From positions 1 to 7,174 of the forward strand of contig JALTYW010000009.1 of assembly GCA_027046415.1 (NCBI GenBank): a stretch of DNA of 7,174 bases, read 5' to 3'. Position 1 is the stretch's first letter; each line of letters starts with the position of its first letter. The stretch is from Sulfurovum sp. GTDB lineage: Bacteria > Campylobacterota > Campylobacteria > Campylobacterales > Sulfurovaceae. A program made the position numbers and the translations under genes. The notes beneath the pieces are model-generated. The model searched no databases and was not told the DNA's origin. It saw only the letters and a program-made list of their open reading frames with translations. Shown one piece after another: positions 2 through 7,174 of the stretch.

Positions 2-2440
2 GCAAGACTCTTCAATGCCGGCGGCGATGAGCTTGTGCAGATCGCAAAATTGGGTGATGAACTTGCAGGGCTTGGCAAATACCTTAAGCAATCTGAACTC
101 GCGGAGATATACGAGGCAGAGATAGCAAAGATGAAGCAGTCTACAGACTTACTTGCAGACAAGCTACAGGAGGCTTTCGGCATCAAAAATGACAGCGTTT
201 TTTGGCATCTGTTTGACAATCTACTTGGCAGTATAAACGCGTTTGGCAAGGCATTTGGAAGCGGAGATCCTTTCTCTGTGGCAAACGCTACAGGGAATCT
301 GATAGGTTCCTCTTTGGACACTTTGATGCCGGGTCTTGGTACCGCAGTGCAAACCATTGGGGCGATGTTCTCCAATACACTTACAGAAGCACAAATAAGA
401 GCTGCTGCAGGGCGCAGCGAATTTGACTCGAAAGGCACACAGCAGATCATAGATACGCTCAAAAAATACCAGGATCCACAGCTGACAGCAACCCGCCAGA
501 TGCTGACACACCTCGAAAGTATGGATCAGAATCTTTTGTCTGCACTGGCATCTTCGAGCAGCCTAAATCTCTCAGGATCGAACTTTACGCCAAAGACATC
601 TTCCGTGCTTGGCGGCATCATCTCTGCCTCTACAACAGAGCTGATAGGGTCTGGTATCAAATTTTACGATCAGGCAGTCAAAGGTTTTGTGCAGGGGGTT
701 GAGGCAGACAAATACGAGGCAATCAAAAAGAGTTCATCCATTTTGGGTATATTCCACAGCGAGAAGATCAAGGAACAGACCAGTAAGCTGCCACAAAGCA
801 TTGCAAAGCAGCTTGGTCAAGCGTTTCAAGATGGCATCGATGCTGCCGGCACAGCACTTGATACTCTTGGACTTGACACTACAGCTATTGAACAGAAGAT
901 TAACGAGTATGTCGTCAGTATTGGTAAGGTAAACCTGAAAGACATGTCTGCGGAAGAGCAGGCAAAAGCCATCAATGCAGCGCTGACAGAGCAACTCAAC
1001 AACGCAGTTTCGGGAGCCATAAACGCTATTGCATCTCCAGAGAACATTAGTAAACTGAACACTCTTCAAATAGCTGGAGAGGAGTATGTACAGGAGTTGG
1101 TGAGAATTGCAACAGAACATGAAACGGTCAGACAGCAGCTTGCGCTATTTGGTCAGACTGTACAGGATTTTGCAGCTTCCGACGCACTTGTTCAGGCAGC
1201 CGGCGGGCTTGACAGATTCAAGTCAGCCATGGACACTTTCACAAAAAACTTTTTCAGCAGTACTGAGCAAAAACAATTTATGCAGCAGCAGTTGCAATAT
1301 GCTCTGCAGATACACAATGTTGCACTACCAGCCTCAAAAGCTCAATTTAGGGCACTTGTTCTTGAGACGCAGCAAAAAATTATTTCTGTCAGAGCTACAA
1401 TCTCGACACTAAAAGCAGAAATTGCAGCAAAAGTAGCTGCTGGAGAAATGAGTCTGCAGGTTGCCTACGGGGAACTTGGGGCAAAAGGGAAAATAGCACA
1501 AGCACACTCAAATGTCATCAAGGGGCAAATATCTGATAATAATATTCTAATAAAAAGTTCACACGAAGCAGGCAAAGCGGCAGTCAGTTTTGGCAAGTCT
1601 GTTCACAATTCAATACAGGCAATGGTAACAGGTGTGGGGCAGGCTGCAGGAGATGGTGCAGAGCAATCAGTTGATGCGGTTGGAGGAATAGACTACAGCC
1701 GCATTACGTCTCCCGCAATTGCAGCAGCACAAGCAGAGCTTAAAAACCTTGAGGGGCTTTATGGGACACTAATGTCAAATATGGGTGATTTTGCAGAATA
1801 CTACAACGAAACCGGAGACTCAGTTGCGAAAACAAGCAACAATGCACAATCAGCAGAAGAAAAGCGAGTTGCAAAACTGAAAGAGGCGGTAGAACTCATC
1901 AACCAAGAGATTAAACTGAGAAATGCACTCAATAGGTCTATTGCATCAATGCAGGATAGTGTATATGGCACGTTTAGTCAACTAATGGGCAAAGATATCC
2001 CAAATATCATCGATAATCTGTATACAGCGATTGCAAACAAAAACTACGAGAAAGTGCCTGGATTGTTCAGTGATTATGCAAAGAAGCTTGAGGAAACAGC
2101 AAACAGCAAAGAGTCGTACCTCAGGGGAGTCATAGGAATGAATGCGGCAGTACAGTCTGTGACAAGACAGGACGAGATGACTCTTCTTGACGCAAACATC
2201 GCAACATCTGCAAACACTGAAGAGATTGTCCGTCTACAGCGAATTGCAACAGGAATTCAGGCAGACACAAAAGCATCAACGGAAAAAGACAACAAGCTCG
2301 ATAGAAACATAGAGCTGCTCAAAGAACTGATCGCCCTTCAAAAAGAAGCAAATAAACAGAACGCCAAAGGAATAGAGATACAAGAGACGCAGGCACGTGA
2401 TGCTGTAGCTGCTGCATATAGAGCAGGAGGTGCTGCATGA
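2..2440 (+). CDS. Phage tail tape-measure protein, C-terminal part (5' end outside window)
   Basis: The frame is open from the left edge, reading ARLFNAGGDELVQIAK, so the GTG at 35 is probably not the true start and the gene begins upstream. At least 812 residues remain. The protein is Ala/Gln/Lys/Glu-rich and largely helical, with no cysteine and a single Trp. A Gly-rich hydrophobic stretch lies around residues 68-115 counted from the GTG. Long coiled-coil-prone helices lie around 380-500, 605-645 and 740-790. The segment near residues 395-410 (LDRFKSAMDTFTKNFFSSTEQ) resembles a block I recall from tape-measure C-termini of proteobacterial phages. Tape-measure proteins set tail length inside the tail tube and leave it at DNA injection. 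Position just before tail-tip and fibre genes fits. The family call is from composition and context; no database search was possible. Confidence 0.8.
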   Translation, partial: ARLFNAGGDELVQIAKLGDELAGLGKYLKQSELAEIYEAEIAKMKQSTDLLADKLQEAFGIKNDSVFWHLFDNLLGSINAFGKAFGSGDPFSVANATGNLIGSSLDTLMPGLGTAVQTIGAMFSNTLTEAQIRAAAGRSEFDSKGTQQIIDTLKKYQDPQLTATRQMLTHLESMDQNLLSALASSSSLNLSGSNFTPKTSSVLGGIISASTTELIGSGIKFYDQAVKGFVQGVEADKYEAIKKSSSILGIFHSEKIKEQTSKLPQSIAKQLGQAFQDGIDAAGTALDTLGLDTTAIEQKINEYVVSIGKVNLKDMSAEEQAKAINAALTEQLNNAVSGAINAIASPENISKLNTLQIAGEEYVQELVRIATEHETVRQQLALFGQTVQDFAASDALVQAAGGLDRFKSAMDTFTKNFFSSTEQKQFMQQQLQYALQIHNVALPASKAQFRALVLETQQKIISVRATISTLKAEIAAKVAAGEMSLQVAYGELGAKGKIAQAHSNVIKGQISDNNILIKSSHEAGKAAVSFGKSVHNSIQAMVTGVGQAAGDGAEQSVDAVGGIDYSRITSPAIAAAQAELKNLEGLYGTLMSNMGDFAEYYNETGDSVAKTSNNAQSAEEKRVAKLKEAVELINQEIKLRNALNRSIASMQDSVYGTFSQLMGKDIPNIIDNLYTAIANKNYEKVPGLFSDYAKKLEETANSKESYLRGVIGMNAAVQSVTRQDEMTLLDANIATSANTEEIVRLQRIATGIQADTKASTEKDNKLDRNIELLKELIALQKEANKQNAKGIEIQETQARDAVAAAYRAGGAA
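2425..2440 (+). promoter_or_regulatory. Perfect Shine-Dalgarno with ATGA stop/start overlap
   Basis: AGGAGGT at 2425-2431 sits 5 nt before the ATG at 2437. The ATG overlaps the TGA stop (2438-2440) of the tape-measure gene. This fixes the start of the downstream gene and implies translational coupling of the two proteins. Confidence 0.85.
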
Positions 2441-3624
2441 TAGCTATTCCTGCGAAACCAATTGCACTTGTTTCTTCGAATGCATACATCACACCCGATG
2501 CAGAGTATCAGTCTGGTACAACATATGCAAAAGATAGCATTGTATACGTTAAGGAACGGGTAGCAGGAGATCCAAGCAGCTATGTTGGTGTTATTTTCCA
2601 AAGCATTATAGACCAAAACACAGCTGATCCTGTAGAAGACACATCAGCATGGAGGGCAATCGGATATCTTGAATACGAAGCGGGGAGGGTGTATCCGGAG
2701 AATGCAACCGTTGTGCTTGAGGGTAACAGATATCTGTCGCAGGAAATAAACAATGACACATCTCCTCTCTCCCATAACAGTAAATGGTCGTCACTCGGCA
2801 AAGATAATGCACATGCCTGTCTTGATTATTATTTTACGACAGCCACAACAAAAATAGGTGAATCACTCGTAATGACACTTGCATTTCAGCGATGTGATAC
2901 TCTTAGTCTTTTTGGGTTGTATGGAAGCTTTTTACAAGTAGAACAGCTTGACGAAAGCGGTAATGTGATTCAAACAAACATCATCCCGCACACAGATCCT
3001 GCGAGCATCAGTGATTTTGCCTCATGGATGCTGTTTGGAAGTGTAGGGGGAGTCACTGTCGATGGCACCGACATTGGAACGTACCAAAGAAGCCTTGTTG
3101 ATACCTCAATGATACATGATTTCGCTTCGTGGCTAAGGTTTGTATCCTGTGATACAGACGGAAGCGCACAAGTATCACTTATAAAGAAAGAGAATCAACA
3201 GGTTCGAATCACGATAGAACCAAAACCGTACAAAGGTGCTCTCATTGCAGAATTAGCATCTGTAACAGCAGGAGAAAAAAGAGTAATAGGGTGCACGATG
3301 AGAGGATTGACCTCCAGAAGAATATCCCTGCGTCCACCCAAAAGAGACAAATGGGGGGACATCGAAGATGGAGGGGACGACTATGTGAAGATCTATACAG
3401 CAAAAGCAATGTTTGATACAGAAGACATTGATTATATGGATAGCGTCATAGACCTTCTGTTTAATCAGCCAGCAACCTATTATCTCACAGATGACAGACA
3501 TCAGGCATTCAACACGTTTGGCATGATGCAAGACAATGAACTGTCACTCGAGAATGCATCAAAAACCGGGATGCCTGTAAAGATAGAAAGTTTCAAATAT
3601 AAAAAAAACAACAAGGAGTGCTAA
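2437..3624 (+). CDS. Phage tail-tip/adhesin-like protein with two carbohydrate-binding-type repeats
   Basis: This is a 395-residue protein translated from an ATG with an excellent ribosome site. Residues 24-76 and 80-121 form two related modules with the pattern Y-x-x-G-x-x-Y, a hydrophobic strand, N-x-x-x-P, and a closing W-x-x-(L/I)G. This pattern resembles the chitin/cellulose-binding (CBM5/12, ChtBD3) modules common in phage tail proteins. The middle (about 128-260) is beta-rich and contains the block DFASW twice, at 193-197 and 228-232. The C-terminal part (about 262-388) has a basic stretch (RGLTSRRISLRPPKR) followed by a mixed alpha/beta segment. Position between tape measure and fibre suggests a distal tail or baseplate component that may contact surface glycans. 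The glycan-binding role is inferred from the repeat pattern. The C-terminal part is not recognised. It could equally be a purely structural tail-tip protein. Confidence 0.65.
   Translation: MIAIPAKPIALVSSNAYITPDAEYQSGTTYAKDSIVYVKERVAGDPSSYVGVIFQSIIDQNTADPVEDTSAWRAIGYLEYEAGRVYPENATVVLEGNRYLSQEINNDTSPLSHNSKWSSLGKDNAHACLDYYFTTATTKIGESLVMTLAFQRCDTLSLFGLYGSFLQVEQLDESGNVIQTNIIPHTDPASISDFASWMLFGSVGGVTVDGTDIGTYQRSLVDTSMIHDFASWLRFVSCDTDGSAQVSLIKKENQQVRITIEPKPYKGALIAELASVTAGEKRVIGCTMRGLTSRRISLRPPKRDKWGDIEDGGDDYVKIYTAKAMFDTEDIDYMDSVIDLLFNQPATYYLTDDRHQAFNTFGMMQDNELSLENASKTGMPVKIESFKYKKNNKEC
2506..2799 (+). repeat. Two CBM5/12-like protein modules in tandem
   Basis: Module 1 covers 2506-2664 and module 2 covers 2674-2799. 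They share Y-x-x-G-x-x-Y at the start (YQSGTTY and YEAGRVY), an aromatic-x-S core, an Asn-to-Pro loop, and a final Trp followed by Gly (WRAIG and WSSLG). Module 1 is longer by a loop containing ERVAGDPSS. The similarity is at protein level, not DNA level. Confidence 0.55.
3007..3141 (+). repeat. Internal DFASW duplication in the tail-tip protein
   Basis: ISDFASWMLF (residues 191-200) and IHDFASWLRF (226-235) are 35 residues apart. Each follows a D-x-(A/S) turn (TDPAS and VDTSM). They look like an ancient duplication of a strand-turn-strand unit inside the central beta-rich domain. Confidence 0.5.
3613..3618 (+). promoter_or_regulatory. Ribosome binding site of the tail-fibre gene
   Basis: AAGGAG lies 9 nt before the ATG at 3628 and inside the last codons of the preceding gene, whose TAA ends at 3624. 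It supports the chosen start and cotranscription. Confidence 0.75.
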
Positions 3625-3627
3625 AAA

Positions 3628-4248
3628 ATGATAAATGAAATACAACAAGACGTTACAATACCACCTGCGCCGCCAACTGGACTTTATGATGCGGATTTCC
3701 AAAACAAAATAAATGCTCTTCTTGCATGGTTTAACACTCATGCAGTCGAAGAGACAACATTTATTGAGAAACTGAATCTCTTTGTTAATGAGGTAAACGG
3801 GGCAATACCATTGGTTAACAATGGGCTTCCAGTATCTGAATACACAGGAAGCCCAAATAACACATTTATGGTGGCAGATGCAGTTGCTGATGATGACGCT
3901 GTAAACAAGAGACAACTCGATTCTGCTATATCCGGAATTCTGACCAATGGCTTTTGTATGTCTCAGACAAGGGTAGACGAAACAGCAAATAGAGACCTCG
4001 GCATAACATACCAAAACACCTCTCTCGCACCTATAACTCTGCTTATCAGTTTTAACTACACTACGTCTACCACAAAATATATTAGCCTATTAGCCGATAT
4101 TGCGGGTACGATAGTTGAGTATCCTGGGATTGCGTCAACAACAACAAGAGACAGTCTTGCACAGATTGTTGTGCAACCCGGAGAAACATACAAAATCGAT
4201 GCAGGAGACAATTCACCTGTTGTTACACGCTGGATAGAGATAAAGTAA
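3628..4248 (+). CDS. Short phage tail-fibre protein
   Basis: This is a 206-residue protein. The N-terminal part (1-60) has a Pro-rich start (IPPAPPTGLYDADF) followed by helix-forming sequence, probably the tail-attachment and oligomerisation part. Residues 88-98 read DDDAVNKRQLD, the 'AVNKxQLD' motif often seen in phage tail-fibre shafts just before a trimerising segment. The rest (about 120-206) is beta-rich and starts with ITYQNTS. It contains VVQPGETYKI and ends WIEIK, in the manner of small C-terminal fibre heads (YTNT ... PPGxTY ... W). It probably forms a trimeric fibre that binds the host surface. It follows the preceding gene by 3 bp and is followed by a fibre-chaperone-type gene, the usual fibre/assembly pairing. 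At about 200 residues it is short for a fibre, so it may be only the distal piece. Confidence 0.75.
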   Translation: MINEIQQDVTIPPAPPTGLYDADFQNKINALLAWFNTHAVEETTFIEKLNLFVNEVNGAIPLVNNGLPVSEYTGSPNNTFMVADAVADDDAVNKRQLDSAISGILTNGFCMSQTRVDETANRDLGITYQNTSLAPITLLISFNYTTSTTKYISLLADIAGTIVEYPGIASTTTRDSLAQIVVQPGETYKIDAGDNSPVVTRWIEIK

Positions 4249-4258: not shown

Positions 4259-4786
4259 ATGAAATATTACAAAAATCAGAGCGAACAACCATTCGCATTT
4301 GAAGATGATTACACGCCTGAAAACGGTTTTATCGAAATTACAAAAGAAGAAGCGCTCGCACTCACTCACAATGCAAAAACACCAGAACAAAAGAAAAAAG
4401 AGCGATATTCGAGACTTGAAGAAATTTTCGTCGAAAAAACAATTGGGCTAAAAAAAATTGCTATCGATAAACCATGGATGAGCGATCCCGCAGCGGTCAA
4501 TAGCCAATATGTTGTATATGAAGAACTATACAACAATGCAAAAAAAGGGTTGTATGACCCACAAACCAACGAGGCTATTATTTTTGCGAACGAATCAACA
4601 AAAGAACAGCTTGCTCCCATCACACATCTACTCAATTCTGTACGAAGCACAATAGAAAATGCGATAGCCGCAGATAACGATAATGCAGATACACTGCTTG
4701 AAATGGCTGCTACTGTGTCCCTTGATGCCTCAGATATAACACAGAAAAAAGTTGATGAAATTAAAACTACTTTTGGACTAAACTAA
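4259..4786 (+). CDS. Tail-fibre assembly / chaperone-type protein
   Basis: This is a 175-residue acidic protein. Its first 35 residues (MKYYKNQSEQPFAFEDDY, then GFIEITKEEALAL) follow the pattern of tail-fibre assembly proteins and DUF4376-type phage proteins: a short beta hairpin quoting 'Y-x-x-x-x-x-x-F-A-F/Y-D', then 'x-I-T-x-E-E-A'. Residues 40-70 are a charged helix (EQKKKERYSRLEEIF). The rest is mostly helical with no cysteine. Proteins of this type usually sit directly downstream of their fibre and help it fold or attach, without joining the virion or as a minor part of it. The call rests on the N-terminal pattern and the position 10 bp after the fibre gene. The C-terminal half is not recognised. 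Confidence 0.6.
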   Translation: MKYYKNQSEQPFAFEDDYTPENGFIEITKEEALALTHNAKTPEQKKKERYSRLEEIFVEKTIGLKKIAIDKPWMSDPAAVNSQYVVYEELYNNAKKGLYDPQTNEAIIFANESTKEQLAPITHLLNSVRSTIENAIAADNDNADTLLEMAATVSLDASDITQKKVDEIKTTFGLN

Positions 4787-4795: not shown

Positions 4796-5893
4796 ATGAA
4801 ATATGGAATCCCCTACATCATTGCCTTGCTTTTTATGGCATTATTCTCGGCGTGCTCAACACAAGACAATTCTATTACAGAAACAAATATATCAACACAA
4901 GACTATTATACGATCGACACAAATGTATCAACACATAAGATTATATTCGATGATGATGCATTGGGAGATAACGACATCGCCCAGTCTCTATCTTCAATTC
5001 TCGCACTCGAAAAAACGGGAAATGTTCATCTGCTTGGTGTTGCACTAAGCGGAGTGGATACGAACAATAAACGCTCTTTGGCAGTATCCTCTATTCTCTA
5101 TTATTACGGGAGAGAAGATGTTCCAGTTTCTATATCTAAGAGAAAAGACACAAGAGTACAGCCATCTCCATTCAGCAACTATCCAAAACTATCAGACCTT
5201 TATGTGGGTCAGGGGAGGGATGTGTCAGAATTTAATAACGATGGAATTTTTGATGCTCAGCGGGAGGATGCCATAGATATGTATTGTAGAGTCCTTTCTT
5301 CTGTAGAACATAAAGTTACTATAGTGGTAGCAGGAAATTGTTATAACATCGACGAATTGTTTAAAGAGACAACAAGGTGCCACGGTATTGAATTGGTGAG
5401 AGACAAAGTTGACAAGCTTGTCCTGGTTGGTGGGCTTGTAAACAAAAAGGGATGGGATATGAATTTTGGAGCTTTTGGACGATTCCATCCCGCTGCGGTT
5501 AAAGCAGCGAAAAATACAATCAATATTTCTCCAGTACCGGTTGTGCTTATTGATGAAGCAGCTGGCTGTTATCCTACAGATGTATACAGACAATATCAGA
5601 CAAACAAGACAGACAGTCCAATGGCAATGATTCTTAGTGCGATGTATGGATCTCATGCGAAAATAGAAGATAGAGACTGTGTTTGGGATGCAGCTGCTGC
5701 ATTATACGCAATCAGTGGCACTGAATGGTATAAAAACAAGATATGGACAGAGGTTCACGGTAAAATAAAACTGGATAGAGATGGAAGGGTTTCTTTTCAT
5801 GAAGACACAAGCAGCAAAGATATTAAACTACAAAGAAGCAGTTCAACCGGACAAATACTGAATGATATTTTTATTGATCTTGTGAAACTTTAG
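4796..5893 (+). CDS. Nucleoside-hydrolase-like lipoprotein (divergent IUNH family), phage cargo gene
   Basis: This is a 365-residue protein. Residues 1-20 are a lipoprotein signal (one Lys, a hydrophobic core, then LFSAC with lipidated Cys20). A Thr/Ser/Asp-rich tether (21-47) contains a 12-residue tandem repeat. The remaining part matches the inosine-uridine preferring nucleoside hydrolase layout. It has IIFDDDALGDND (49-60) for the DTDxGxDxDD metal loop, VAGNCYN (178-184) for the GPLTN loop, LVLVGGLV (208-215) then MNFG (222-225, Asn223) for the GG...EFN block, HPAA (231-234), and WD (297-298) for the C-terminal HD metal ligand. Family enzymes split the N-glycosidic bond of nucleosides with a bound calcium. 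Several key positions differ here, so activity is uncertain. The protein would sit anchored in the membrane, facing the periplasm or cell surface. It ends the late operon and is not a structural tail type, so it is probably a moron expressed by or for the lysogen. Confidence 0.7.
   Translation: MKYGIPYIIALLFMALFSACSTQDNSITETNISTQDYYTIDTNVSTHKIIFDDDALGDNDIAQSLSSILALEKTGNVHLLGVALSGVDTNNKRSLAVSSILYYYGREDVPVSISKRKDTRVQPSPFSNYPKLSDLYVGQGRDVSEFNNDGIFDAQREDAIDMYCRVLSSVEHKVTIVVAGNCYNIDELFKETTRCHGIELVRDKVDKLVLVGGLVNKKGWDMNFGAFGRFHPAAVKAAKNTINISPVPVVLIDEAAGCYPTDVYRQYQTNKTDSPMAMILSAMYGSHAKIEDRDCVWDAAAALYAISGTEWYKNKIWTEVHGKIKLDRDGRVSFHEDTSSKDIKLQRSSSTGQILNDIFIDLVKL
4856..4939 (+). repeat. 36-bp tandem repeat in the lipoprotein tether
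   Basis: TCAACACAAGAC occurs at 4856-4867 and again at 4892-4903, and TCAACACATAAG at 4928-4939, each 36 bp apart. At the protein level this gives STQD/STQD/STHK starts with TETNI and IDTNV between them (residues 21-47). The second half of each unit is also conserved (ACAAATATATCAACACA at 4883 and ACAAATGTATCAACACA at 4919, one mismatch). There are 2.3 copies. It lengthens the linker between the lipid anchor and the hydrolase domain. Confidence 0.85.
5412..5425 (+). repeat. 14-bp exact repeat, copy 1 (inside lipoprotein gene)
   Basis: ACAAGCTTGTCCTG at 5412-5425 is repeated exactly at 5981-5994 in the non-coding region downstream. Its first ten bases (ACAAGCTTGT) are a perfect palindrome. 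In this copy the palindrome extends to 12 bases (GACAAGCTTGTC, 5411-5422). Confidence 0.8.
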
Positions 5894-5948: not shown

Positions 5949-5969
5949 TAAAAAATTAACCTTTTTTGT

Positions 5970-6027
5970 GATTACTTACAACAAGCTTGTCCTGTTTCGT
6001 ATGTTGTAAAGAGTAATCTACTTTTTT
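5970..6027 (+). terminator. Long hairpin followed by T-run, candidate terminator of the phage operon
   Basis: GATTACT-TACAACA (5970-5983) pairs with TGTTGTA-aag-AGTAATC (6002-6018). This gives a 14-bp stem with a 3-nt bulge and an 18-nt loop. TAC and six T residues follow (6022-6027). The stem is AT-rich and the T-run starts 3 nt after the stem, so efficiency is uncertain. The loop begins within a second palindrome, ACAAGCTTGT (5981-5990), which competes with the stem. The same structure could instead be a recombinase binding site. Confidence 0.45.
5981..5994 (+). repeat. 14-bp exact repeat, copy 2 (non-coding)
   Basis: ACAAGCTTGTCCTG is identical to 5412-5425 in the lipoprotein gene. It overlaps the left arm and loop of the hairpin at 5970-6018. 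Confidence 0.8.
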
Positions 6028-6119
6028 AATAGAATTTATATTATGTTAATCAATATACGAGTTAAAGTAAGATTTCGGGTTGCTATTTAGCCCGTTTTTC
6101 CAAATAATCTACTATTTTA
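6014..6119 (+). repeat. 15-bp direct repeat pair, 91 bp apart
   Basis: TAATCTACTTTTTTA at 6014-6028 and TAATCTACTATTTTA at 6105-6119 differ at one base. They bracket the compact terminator at 6076-6099. The first copy overlaps the right arm and T-run of the 5970-6027 hairpin. Confidence 0.7.
6076..6099 (+). terminator. Compact intrinsic terminator, plus strand
   Basis: CGGGTT (6076-6081) pairs with AGCCCG (6089-6094) through six pairs including one G-U, around a 7-nt loop. TTTTT follows immediately (6095-6099). The GC-rich base and direct U-run are classical. It lies 183 bp after the lipoprotein stop. It may end the phage operon as a backup, or belong to whatever plus-strand gene originally faced the chromosomal genes here. 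Confidence 0.6.
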
Positions 6120-6188
6120 TACAGAACCAAATACCATTTAGTATTGATTCATTGATTGCTTACTATTCCAATATGGCTTTTTATATTT

Positions 6189-6222
6189 CCAAATCCCAAA
6201 ATGATTTCAAATCGGGATTTGG
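6189..6222. repeat. Perfect 9-bp inverted repeat with nested palindromes
   Basis: CCAAATCCC (6189-6197) and GGGATTTGG (6214-6222) are perfect complements around a 16-nt loop. Within the loop GATTT-c-AAATC (6203-6213) is itself an inverted repeat, and AAATC-gg-GATTT (6209-6220) offers an alternative fold. It sits 10 bp past the stop of the minus-strand gene ending at 6232. No T-run follows on either strand, so it is not a standard intrinsic terminator. It probably protects that gene's mRNA 3' end or ends transcription with help from Rho. Confidence 0.6.
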
Positions 6223-6231
6223 CTTATAGCA

Positions 6232-6675
6232 TCAAACAGCAATCATACGGTTTTGCTGTGCAACCTTTTGAAGTCTGGCAAGCATGCCATTAGAGAGTTT
6301 TTCTTGATGGATCTGTGTTGCCATTCTCACAAGTGTATCGTAGTCACTCAAATCTGCACTGCGCCTAAACAGTGCCTCATCACTCAGGTATGCTACAACA
6401 TCTTCATGGGTGGCAATATTGTGATGTACGATATTTGCTGCCATAGCAGCAGTTTGTGTGTGGCACTTTTGTACAAAAGATTCGCCTATGGTTTTGGCAG
6501 CATCGGCTTCGAGCCCTTTGGCTTCAAGATCTCTGGCAATCTCAGCACCGAGTCTGTTTTGCTTTTGTACCGCCAATGCACCAAGTGTGCGCTGTGAAAG
6601 GGTCTGCGCTACAGCCGGGTTGAATGCCAGCACCGAGATAAACAGTGTAATACGTAAAATATTTTGTGAGTTCAT
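6232..6675 (-). CDS. Small secreted protein of unknown function
   Basis: This is a 147-residue protein, starting at the ATG at 6675 with AAAGGA (6681-6686) 5 nt upstream. Residues 1-23 form a typical Sec signal peptide (MNSQNILR, a hydrophobic core, then AVA before QT). The mature part of about 124 residues is strongly helical and Ala/Gln-rich, with a single cysteine (Cys71, in QKCHTQ) and several His (72, 84, 85, 90, 123). There is no CxxCH haem site and no membrane segment after the signal. I do not recognise the family. It follows a Spy/CpxP-like gene on the same strand, but a strong terminator separates them, so it is probably transcribed alone. It is likely a chromosomal gene and not a phage gene, because it faces the late operon and encodes an ordinary exported protein. 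Confidence 0.75.
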   Translation of the reverse strand: MNSQNILRITLFISVLAFNPAVAQTLSQRTLGALAVQKQNRLGAEIARDLEAKGLEADAAKTIGESFVQKCHTQTAAMAANIVHHNIATHEDVVAYLSDEALFRRSADLSDYDTLVRMATQIHQEKLSNGMLARLQKVAQQNRMIAV

Positions 6676-6680
6676 GGTGA

Positions 6681-6686
6681 TCCTTT
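6681..6686 (-). promoter_or_regulatory. Ribosome binding site of the secreted-protein gene
   Basis: AAAGGA on the minus strand lies 5 nt before the ATG at 6675. It supports that start, which is also the one that begins the signal peptide. Confidence 0.7.
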
Positions 6687-6754
6687 CAGACCATTGTAGT
6701 AAATGAAGATAAACAAATCGCTTAACAAACTTTAGTCATATTGTATAAAGGTTT
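6687..6754 (-). promoter_or_regulatory. Probable promoter region of the secreted-protein gene
   Basis: Between the terminator at 6755-6783 and the ribosome site lie two TACAAT hexamers on the minus strand (complements of 6693-6698 and 6740-6745), each close to the sigma-70 -10 consensus. The upstream sequence is T-rich (TTTGTTTATCTTCATTT before the nearer one), as in many Campylobacterota promoters with weak -35 elements. Which one is used, if either, cannot be told. The nearer one would give a leader of only about a dozen bases. Confidence 0.3.
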
Positions 6755-6783
6755 AAAAAGCAGACAAAATTGTTTGCCTGCTT
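6755..6783 (-). terminator. Strong intrinsic terminator after the Spy/CpxP-like gene
   Basis: Read on the minus strand, AAGCAGGCAAA (6783-6773) pairs with TTTGTCTGCTT (6768-6758) over 11 positions with one G-U pair and a 4-nt loop. The U-run is formed by the end of the stem and 6757-6755. It starts 9 bp after the TAG stop at 6793-6795. It separates the Spy-like gene from the secreted-protein gene. Confidence 0.8.
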
Positions 6784-6792
6784 CAGCAACAA

Positions 6793-7173
6793 CTATTTAC
6801 CGCATTTACCGGCAGCACATTTCATGCCACCCTGCTTCATGCTTTGCATCTTCTCTTTCATCTTCATCATATGCCCTTTGCGTTTTTGCATCAGGTAGTC
6901 GTACTGTGCTTTGGTCAGTACGGCTTTGGTACTGTCAATACAGTTTAGATGTACCATGGTTGCCTCAGCTTCAAGTGATGCCAGCTTTTCTACTTTGGCT
7001 TTCAGTGCATCTGCTTTGGTACCTGCTTTGCTCGCTTCGATGATCTCTTTTCTCAGCTTCATCACTTCAGGCTTGAGTTTTTTCACACTGCTCATGGTCG
7101 TTTTACGTACTTCCATCAGTTTGGCTTTTTGGTCAGCAGTTAATGCCAGTTTTGGGTCATCCCAACTTTTAGC
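6793..7173 (-). CDS. Spy/CpxP-like periplasmic protein with Met/Cys-rich tail (N-terminus outside window)
   Basis: The frame stays open to the right edge, reading AKSWDDPKLALTADQKAKL before the ATG at 7116, so the true start and probable signal peptide lie upstream. The visible 126 residues are helical and very Lys-rich. Two LTxxQ motifs, the hallmark of the Spy/CpxP family, are present: LTADQ (7143-7129) and LTKAQ (6918-6904). Family members are dimeric periplasmic proteins that act as ATP-independent chaperones or sense envelope or metal stress. The last 27 residues are rich in Met, with one His and two Cys (GHMMKMKEKM, then GGMKCAAGKCGK), and a further Cys lies in HLNCID. This suggests binding of a soft metal such as copper, which is an inference from composition. 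It ends in TAG at 6795-6793, followed closely by a strong terminator. Confidence 0.75.
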   Translation of the reverse strand, partial: AKSWDDPKLALTADQKAKLMEVRKTTMSSVKKLKPEVMKLRKEIIEASKAGTKADALKAKVEKLASLEAEATMVHLNCIDSTKAVLTKAQYDYLMQKRKGHMMKMKEKMQSMKQGGMKCAAGKCGK

Positions 7174-7174
7174 T

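Follow-up and report, generated by a model that had tools for sequence, protein, structure and literature searches.

The window analyzed here, by which we mean the whole 7,174-bp stretch, is an entire contig (C9; JALTYW010000009.1) of a draft genome of Sulfurovum sp. (GCA_027046415.1; 1.44 Mb, 66% complete), and it holds the end of a phage tail operon followed by a short piece of host chromosome. The final gene of this operon, at 4796..5893 on the plus strand, is a 365-aa open reading frame with an ATG start that encodes a putative lipoprotein (P0001) with a predicted nucleoside hydrolase (NH) fold; this gene and the phage that carries it are the subject of our analysis. Upstream, all on the plus strand, are the C-terminal part of a tape-measure protein gene, inside which the contig begins (2..2440; phrog_24709 and phrog_7740), a gene for a 395-aa tail-operon protein of unknown function (2437..3624; phrog_6278, also of unknown function, E=1.8e-26), a gene for a 206-aa tail-fibre-like protein (3628..4248; phrog_26525 tail fibre, E=4e-6), and a 175-aa gene of the fibre module that is tfa-like by position (4259..4786). 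A preliminary description, made from the letters alone, had called this last neighbor a fibre-assembly gene. The 175-aa protein has no PHROG match of its own, and the label comes from its 197-aa relative at another locus, L002 (42% identity), which matches phrog_1766, "tail fiber protein", at E=5e-5. The stop codon of this gene ends at 4786, 9 bp before the lipoprotein ATG, and overlaps a Shine-Dalgarno-like TAAGGA.

Beyond the lipoprotein gene, the right terminus of the phage, TGTAAGTAATCACAAAAAA, is read on the minus strand at 5962..5980 and reaches its TGT/ACA end 87 bp past the lipoprotein stop codon. A host chromosomal dif site follows at 6026..6051 on the plus strand, 45 bp outside the phage end. 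The remaining host DNA carries two minus-strand genes, one for a 147-aa protein with a signal-like N terminus (6232..6675) and one for an LTXXQ/CpxP-like protein truncated at the contig end (6793..7173), whose family match is below cut-off and which has matches in 54 of 78 genomes of the genus; positions 6106-7174 are 91.8% identical to contig C16 of a related genome, G112. An Rfam scan of the window gave nothing at gathering score, and a tRNA search in L001, L002, L004, and L006 found none.

The N terminus of the lipoprotein, MKYGIPYIIALLFMALFSAC, reads by eye as a type II signal with the lipobox Cys at position 20 (signal peptide and lipobox, 4796..4855), followed by a tether of about 25 residues and a single domain, so that the mature protein has 346 residues. 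Cys20 is invariant in all eight aligned family members, and lipid anchoring is predicted. The residue following the Cys is S, G, T, and S in the four phage copies versus D, D, E, and E in P0004 to P0007. In Escherichia coli, the residue after the lipobox Cys bears on outer-membrane sorting (the Lol rule), and by this rule the outer membrane is the predicted destination of the phage copies. Long tethers rich in Asn and Ser are seen in P0004, P0006, and P0007.

The domain contains the NH blocks in their expected order, namely FDDDALGDNDIA at residues 51-62, VAGNCYN at 178-184, LVLVGG..WDMNFG at 208-225, and WD at 297-298. Residues 49-320 match PF01156 at E=4.8e-6, which is above chance, with a score of 26.9 bits that falls under the gathering score of 34.2; the NCBIfam RihA model matches at E=3.6e-7, with 29.5 bits against a cut-off of 433. 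An AF2 model gives the NH fold (mean pLDDT 76.7, pTM 0.80), and an earlier, shallower, and weaker model (pLDDT 66.5) agrees on this fold. Thus, the signal peptide, the order of motifs, and the tight spacing to the upstream gene proposed in the preliminary description are all present, and the fold that it named is the one predicted. A sequence search against solved structures returned no match for P0001, and the same search with the family alignment returned two weak XopQ-type matches only (E 0.85 and above). With the weaker first model as query, the top matches among BFVD viral structures were giant-virus NH proteins, and no bacteriophage NH was found among the best 50.

In an alignment of 10 rows that includes RihB, RihC, an NH from another genome of the order (L008), and the large NH-domain proteins L003 and P0009, four Asp residues are invariant throughout: D52 and D54, the first two of the fingerprint, D60, one of its DD pair, and D298, the downstream metal-ligand Asp (W297-D298, 5684..5689). 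The fingerprint FDDDALGDNDIAQ (4946..4984) includes DDDALGDNDI, which departs from DxDxxxDD by having Ile61 where the second Asp of the DD pair is expected. DI is found in seven of the eight aligned family members, and DD is kept only in P0008. The position before the last Asp is not His: it is W297 in P0001, Q in P0004 and P0006, and L in P0007. Identity of P0001 to RihC is 15% and to RihB 18%. The fingerprint Asp residues that serve as Ca2+ ligands in NHs are D10 and D15. In the available part of a review of NHs, Ca2+ is described as coordinated by three Asp, of which the fingerprint supplies two, and the His preceding the last Asp as assisting leaving-group activation in group I (PMC8910321). 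Since the second Asp of the pair is Ile61 and the His is Trp, classical NH chemistry in the lipoprotein appears doubtful, and an extra Asp58, invariant in all eight members, could compensate for the lost fingerprint Asp. Within the family, D52, D54, D58, D60, D88, G180, N181, Y183, N184, W220-A226, and D298 are invariant (8/8), and this strict conservation argues for a functioning ligand site.

Besides the query itself, a search for the lipoprotein in 5.8 billion protein sequences, clustered at 90%, found at least six relatives; a profile search, which scored the best 7,997 candidates so that counts of relatives are lower bounds, added P0008 and the distant multi-domain P0009 and did not relist P0006. 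Across 398 genomes of the order, the profile matched in three: the window genome, G112, and G194. Two loci, L002 and L006, came from scans of viral contigs, and L004 and L005 from a single scan of genome contigs, while INPHARED phages gave no match at E 0.01. The L005 protein is near-identical to P0005. We considered a salvage enzyme captured from the host order and rejected it, since PF01156 matches in only 2 of 100 relatives, one match being a large multi-domain protein (L003/L009, genome G038); that search also missed the window gene, so divergent members escape it. The L003 frame (G038:C36, same genus) is an open frame of about 998 aa in which an NH domain with the full DxD..DD motif is followed by repeated segments. 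Among the titles and abstract starts listed by a literature search on NHs with prophages or lipoproteins with phages, mostly open access, there was no phage NH lipoprotein.

Genomic context could be read at five loci: the window, L004/L030 in G112 (lipoprotein 81% identical to that of the window), L002 (75%), L006 (36%), and L005/L035 in Nitratifractor (47%). Four of the five are phage, and in all four a fibre-type gene or module lies upstream, so the expectation that homologues would recur after tail-fibre genes holds and the lipoprotein is found as phage cargo. The window, L004/L030, and L002 share one gene order, with tape measure, tail protein, fibre-type protein, 175-197-aa gene, and lipoprotein. 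The fibre-type label comes from a PHROG tail fibre in the window and a PHROG minor tail protein in L002; for L004, it rests on similarity to these two proteins, its own PHROG matches being of unknown function. L006 is a different phage type with its own terminase (phrog_38), in which the lipoprotein start overlaps by one base the stop of a 160-aa tail-fibre-type gene (phrog_2712, E=1.4e-14). It is followed there by a 107-aa frame whose size would suit a holin and which shows hydrophobic stretches by eye; this frame has no PHROG or Pfam match. At L005/L035, the one locus of the five without recognized phage neighbors, the flanking genes are for an OmpA-family protein and a phosphate transporter. 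Further homologues (P0003, P0004, P0005 on a 12,960-bp contig, P0006, and P0007) are outside the five loci read for context.

The nature of the carrier is clearest in G112, where a 32,490-bp contig (C2) holds an apparently complete phage with an S24-type repressor, a transposase (rve and Mu-transpos_C), an AAA/TniB-like ATPase, a GH108 lysozyme, a Mu F-like protein, terminase, portal, protease, a virion structural protein, tail genes, and the lipoprotein. Its transposition genes match PF00665, PF09299, and AAA_22/TniB, as well as phrog_310 and phrog_296. No transposase is present on the window contig or was found in its 66%-complete genome (G000), so we infer the Mu-like nature of the window phage from its relatives. 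The two ends of C2 (99 and 120 bases) match both sides of one site on contig C16 with 100% identity, and a 19-bp direct repeat flanks the phage (L030:81-99 and L031:12371-12389; L025:3666-3684), which identifies C16 as the empty site. That the empty site was assembled as a separate contig shows that the sample was mixed for the insertion. No clean repeat beyond 9 bp was found in a second genome, G033. The phage ends read TGTAAGTAATCACA... and ...GATCCCCCACA, and homology stops at the same right end in the window (5980) and L002 (11179); in the window, G112, and L002 alike, 87 bp separate the lipoprotein stop codon from this right end. An integrase near the L002 phage was rejected as a phage gene, because homology to G112 ends exactly at the terminus (L002:11179) and the integrase starts outside it, at 11918. 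The L002 phage end falls within a 158-aa frame (11101-11577), near this tyrosine integrase gene (11918-12904).

Sister phages in G033 and on a contig of G190 have transposases that are 65% identical. In their last slot, 86 bp from the end, lies a 108-aa gene (L070:4168-4494; L072:213-539) whose product has no Pfam match. Since a different gene occupies this position in the sister phages, the terminal slot is an accessory one, and the lipoprotein is its cargo.

The element at 6026-6051 matches the dif site published for Sulfurovum sp. NBC37-1, as given in an excerpt of PMC2731167. It occurs in 58 of 78 genomes of the genus with at most three mismatches, in 54 as a single copy, and a reversed control gave no match. 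In the four single-contig genomes read, it lies near mid-contig, and mean GC skew (20 kb each side) drops across it in all four. By these features, the element is the Sulfurovum dif site. The right end of the phage lies 45 bp from dif in the window, 84 bp in G112 (65 bp plus the 19-bp repeat), 92 bp in G033, and 81 bp on the G190 contig. In four of five cases, the phage is thus near dif, on its XerC side and in one orientation (sides named after the accessible text of PMC10132070), with L002 as the exception, which has no dif within 2.7 kb past its right end. The exact phage end is found in 3 of 78 genus genomes (the window genome, G112, and G033), each time beside dif; with one mismatch the end motif is found in four genomes and its reversed control in two, so weight is placed on the three exact matches. 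A further candidate end, on G017:C21, was rejected, since the one-mismatch motif lies inside a 205-aa frame; none of nine phage proteins matched there in the 12,000 bases read. G190 is from a different family and has its own, different dif-like site on contig C13, whereas its phage-bearing contig, C20, carries the Sulfurovum form of dif, so C20 is probably a stray Sulfurovum contig contaminating the draft genome. Three of the four dif cases therefore come from Sulfurovum genomes and the fourth from a contig whose origin is uncertain. That a single insertion was inherited vertically keeps a residual probability, but the phages are inserted at different points, and in G112 the empty site is seen as well. 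The carrier family has the look of a transposable phage that targets dif. Among insertion sequences, dif hunting is known, as described in the available sections of PMC10132070. Among the titles listed by a search on transposable or Mu-like phages with dif or XerC, mostly open access, there was no dif-targeting phage.

Selection on the lipoprotein gene was compared with that on its neighbors using our own Nei-Gojobori script. Between the window and L004, the lipoprotein is 81.0% identical (dN/dS 0.18), the tape-measure part 95.2% (0.055), and the 395-aa protein 93.2% (0.064), while the fibre is 44.5% identical over 200 residues and the 175/192-aa gene 19.7%; in dN/dS comparisons with L002, synonymous sites are nearly saturated. 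As judged from these ratios, the lipoprotein is under purifying selection that is weaker than that on the tail genes, and it lies beside a fibre module that appears prone to recombination.

Because one residue of the usual metal-binding motif is lost, the lipoprotein is likely to bind or alter something at the envelope rather than to be an ordinary salvage enzyme. Our preferred reading, held tentatively and short of even confidence, is that it is an envelope-acting conversion or superinfection-exclusion factor of the T5 Llp kind that uses an NH-like pocket. It would be co-produced with the tail proteins, late, and would act at the host envelope by jamming or altering phage entry as Llp does. 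The pocket may bind, or slowly cleave, a ribosyl-containing ligand that belongs to, or masks, the phage entry route. In this way, new phage particles would be spared from loss to the lysing cell, or related phages would be excluded. The altered metal motif lends some weight to the suggestion in the preliminary description that the fold might be reused for binding.

Several observations weigh against an exclusion factor of this kind. The strict conservation of the pocket suits an enzyme or a small-ligand binder no less than a receptor jammer, the lipoprotein is far larger than Llp, and L005/L035 has no recognized phage gene on its 4,084-bp contig. Moreover, across the three Mu-type relatives the fibre and 175-aa genes diverge (19.7-44.5% identity) and the lipoprotein stays at 73-81%. 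Since the fibre genes were swapped and the lipoprotein stayed, a function tied to the receptor of one fibre is unlikely, which weakens the version proposed earlier, and the pattern argues for a target common to the phage family or its hosts. A promoter scan showed no excess (6 found versus 9.3 expected by chance) and is uninformative. With this result and a gap of 9 bp to the late operon, expression from a quiet prophage is unsupported, and the lysogenic conversion first proposed is one possibility, with a role late in the lytic cycle no less likely.

Among other explanations, an envelope-anchored N-ribosidase, that is, a true if divergent NH freeing bases or ribose outside the cytoplasm for salvage in phage growth or for the benefit of the lysogen, is possible though on the unlikely side. 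Strict conservation of the pocket would fit it, and it is opposed by the broken DxDxxxDD of P0001 (I61), the lack of His before the last Asp in P0001, P0004, P0006, and P0007, and the score under the Pfam gathering cut-off. We think it quite unlikely that the gene is an ordinary bacterial lipoprotein carried as passenger cargo, whose benefit to the lysogen, such as binding nucleotides or surface sugars, would be unrelated to phage entry: the non-phage Nitratifractor homologue with its OmpA-family and phosphate-transporter neighbors, the variable last slot of related phages, and the homologues on contigs outside the readable loci are in its favor, but the phage loci, four of the five readable, come from two unrelated phage types and always place the gene beside fibre-type genes, and no separate promoter is seen. 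A structural or lysis accessory of the late operon, such as a tail-tip protein or an outer-membrane disruption factor at lysis, would suit the 9-bp coupling to the fibre module and the L006 position between a fibre-type gene and a small holin-sized frame, but it is improbable, since no match exists anywhere in G033 or among the right-end frames of G033 and G190, a lipoprotein signal is unusual for virion proteins, and the 107-aa L006 neighbor matches no family. Returning to the exclusion factor in its fullest form, an NH fold turned envelope weapon, in which a binder of ribosyl ligands, anchored by lipid and with its metal site rebuilt, would ride as terminal cargo of a dif-hunting transposable phage and shut the surface to competing phages, we regard the whole combination as unlikely.

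Compared with known systems, the lipoprotein shares with the PF01156 NHs RihA, RihB, and RihC the downstream metal-ligand Asp, and it differs from them in being a tethered lipoprotein, in Ile for the second DD Asp, in lacking His before the last Asp, and in scoring below the Pfam cut-off. NH-fold proteins without nucleosidase activity, XopQ/XOO4466 and Sde_0182, are described in the review sections available to us (PMC8910321); both retain the Ca2+ site, and XopQ acts as an injected effector, whereas here a phage lipoprotein has the metal motif itself altered. T5 Llp, according to the available portion of PMC9586334, is a small outer-membrane lipoprotein that jams the receptor from the periplasm, with its gene adjacent to and downstream of that for the receptor-binding protein pb5. 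Like Llp and Cor, our protein is a phage lipoprotein encoded directly after a receptor-binding or fibre gene, as in all four phage loci; it differs in its 365 aa, in an exclusion role that is proposed by analogy, and in fibres that swap while the lipoprotein stays.

The carrier resembles phage Mu, through the G112 relative, in its rve and Mu-transpos_C transposase, MuB/TniB-like ATPase, Mu F-like head protein, and TGT...ACA ends. It is unlike Mu in inserting beside dif in one orientation (four of five cases) and in its 19-bp target duplication, seen in the one case (G112) with both ends clearly readable, since Mu duplicates 5 bp. With the dif-hunting insertion sequences of the IS1202/ISAjo2 family, it shares a fixed orientation, the XerC side of dif, and 5'-TGT and ACA-3' ends; as far as the accessible text of PMC10132070 goes, those elements are 1.5 kb long, insert 5 bp from the site with 5-bp target site duplications, and include a subgroup with long duplications (16-28 bp) for which no dif targeting was found, whereas here whole phages lie 45-92 bp away. 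Sulfurovum has a transposable phage family whose terminal cargo slot the lipoprotein marks. To our knowledge, known entry-blocking phage lipoproteins are small; if our reading is true, phage conversion factors would gain, in a mature NH-fold protein of 346 residues, a scaffold derived from an enzyme, and the NH fold would gain a new, altered use. The lipoprotein also leads to a testable claim, that this phage family targets dif as some insertion sequences do.
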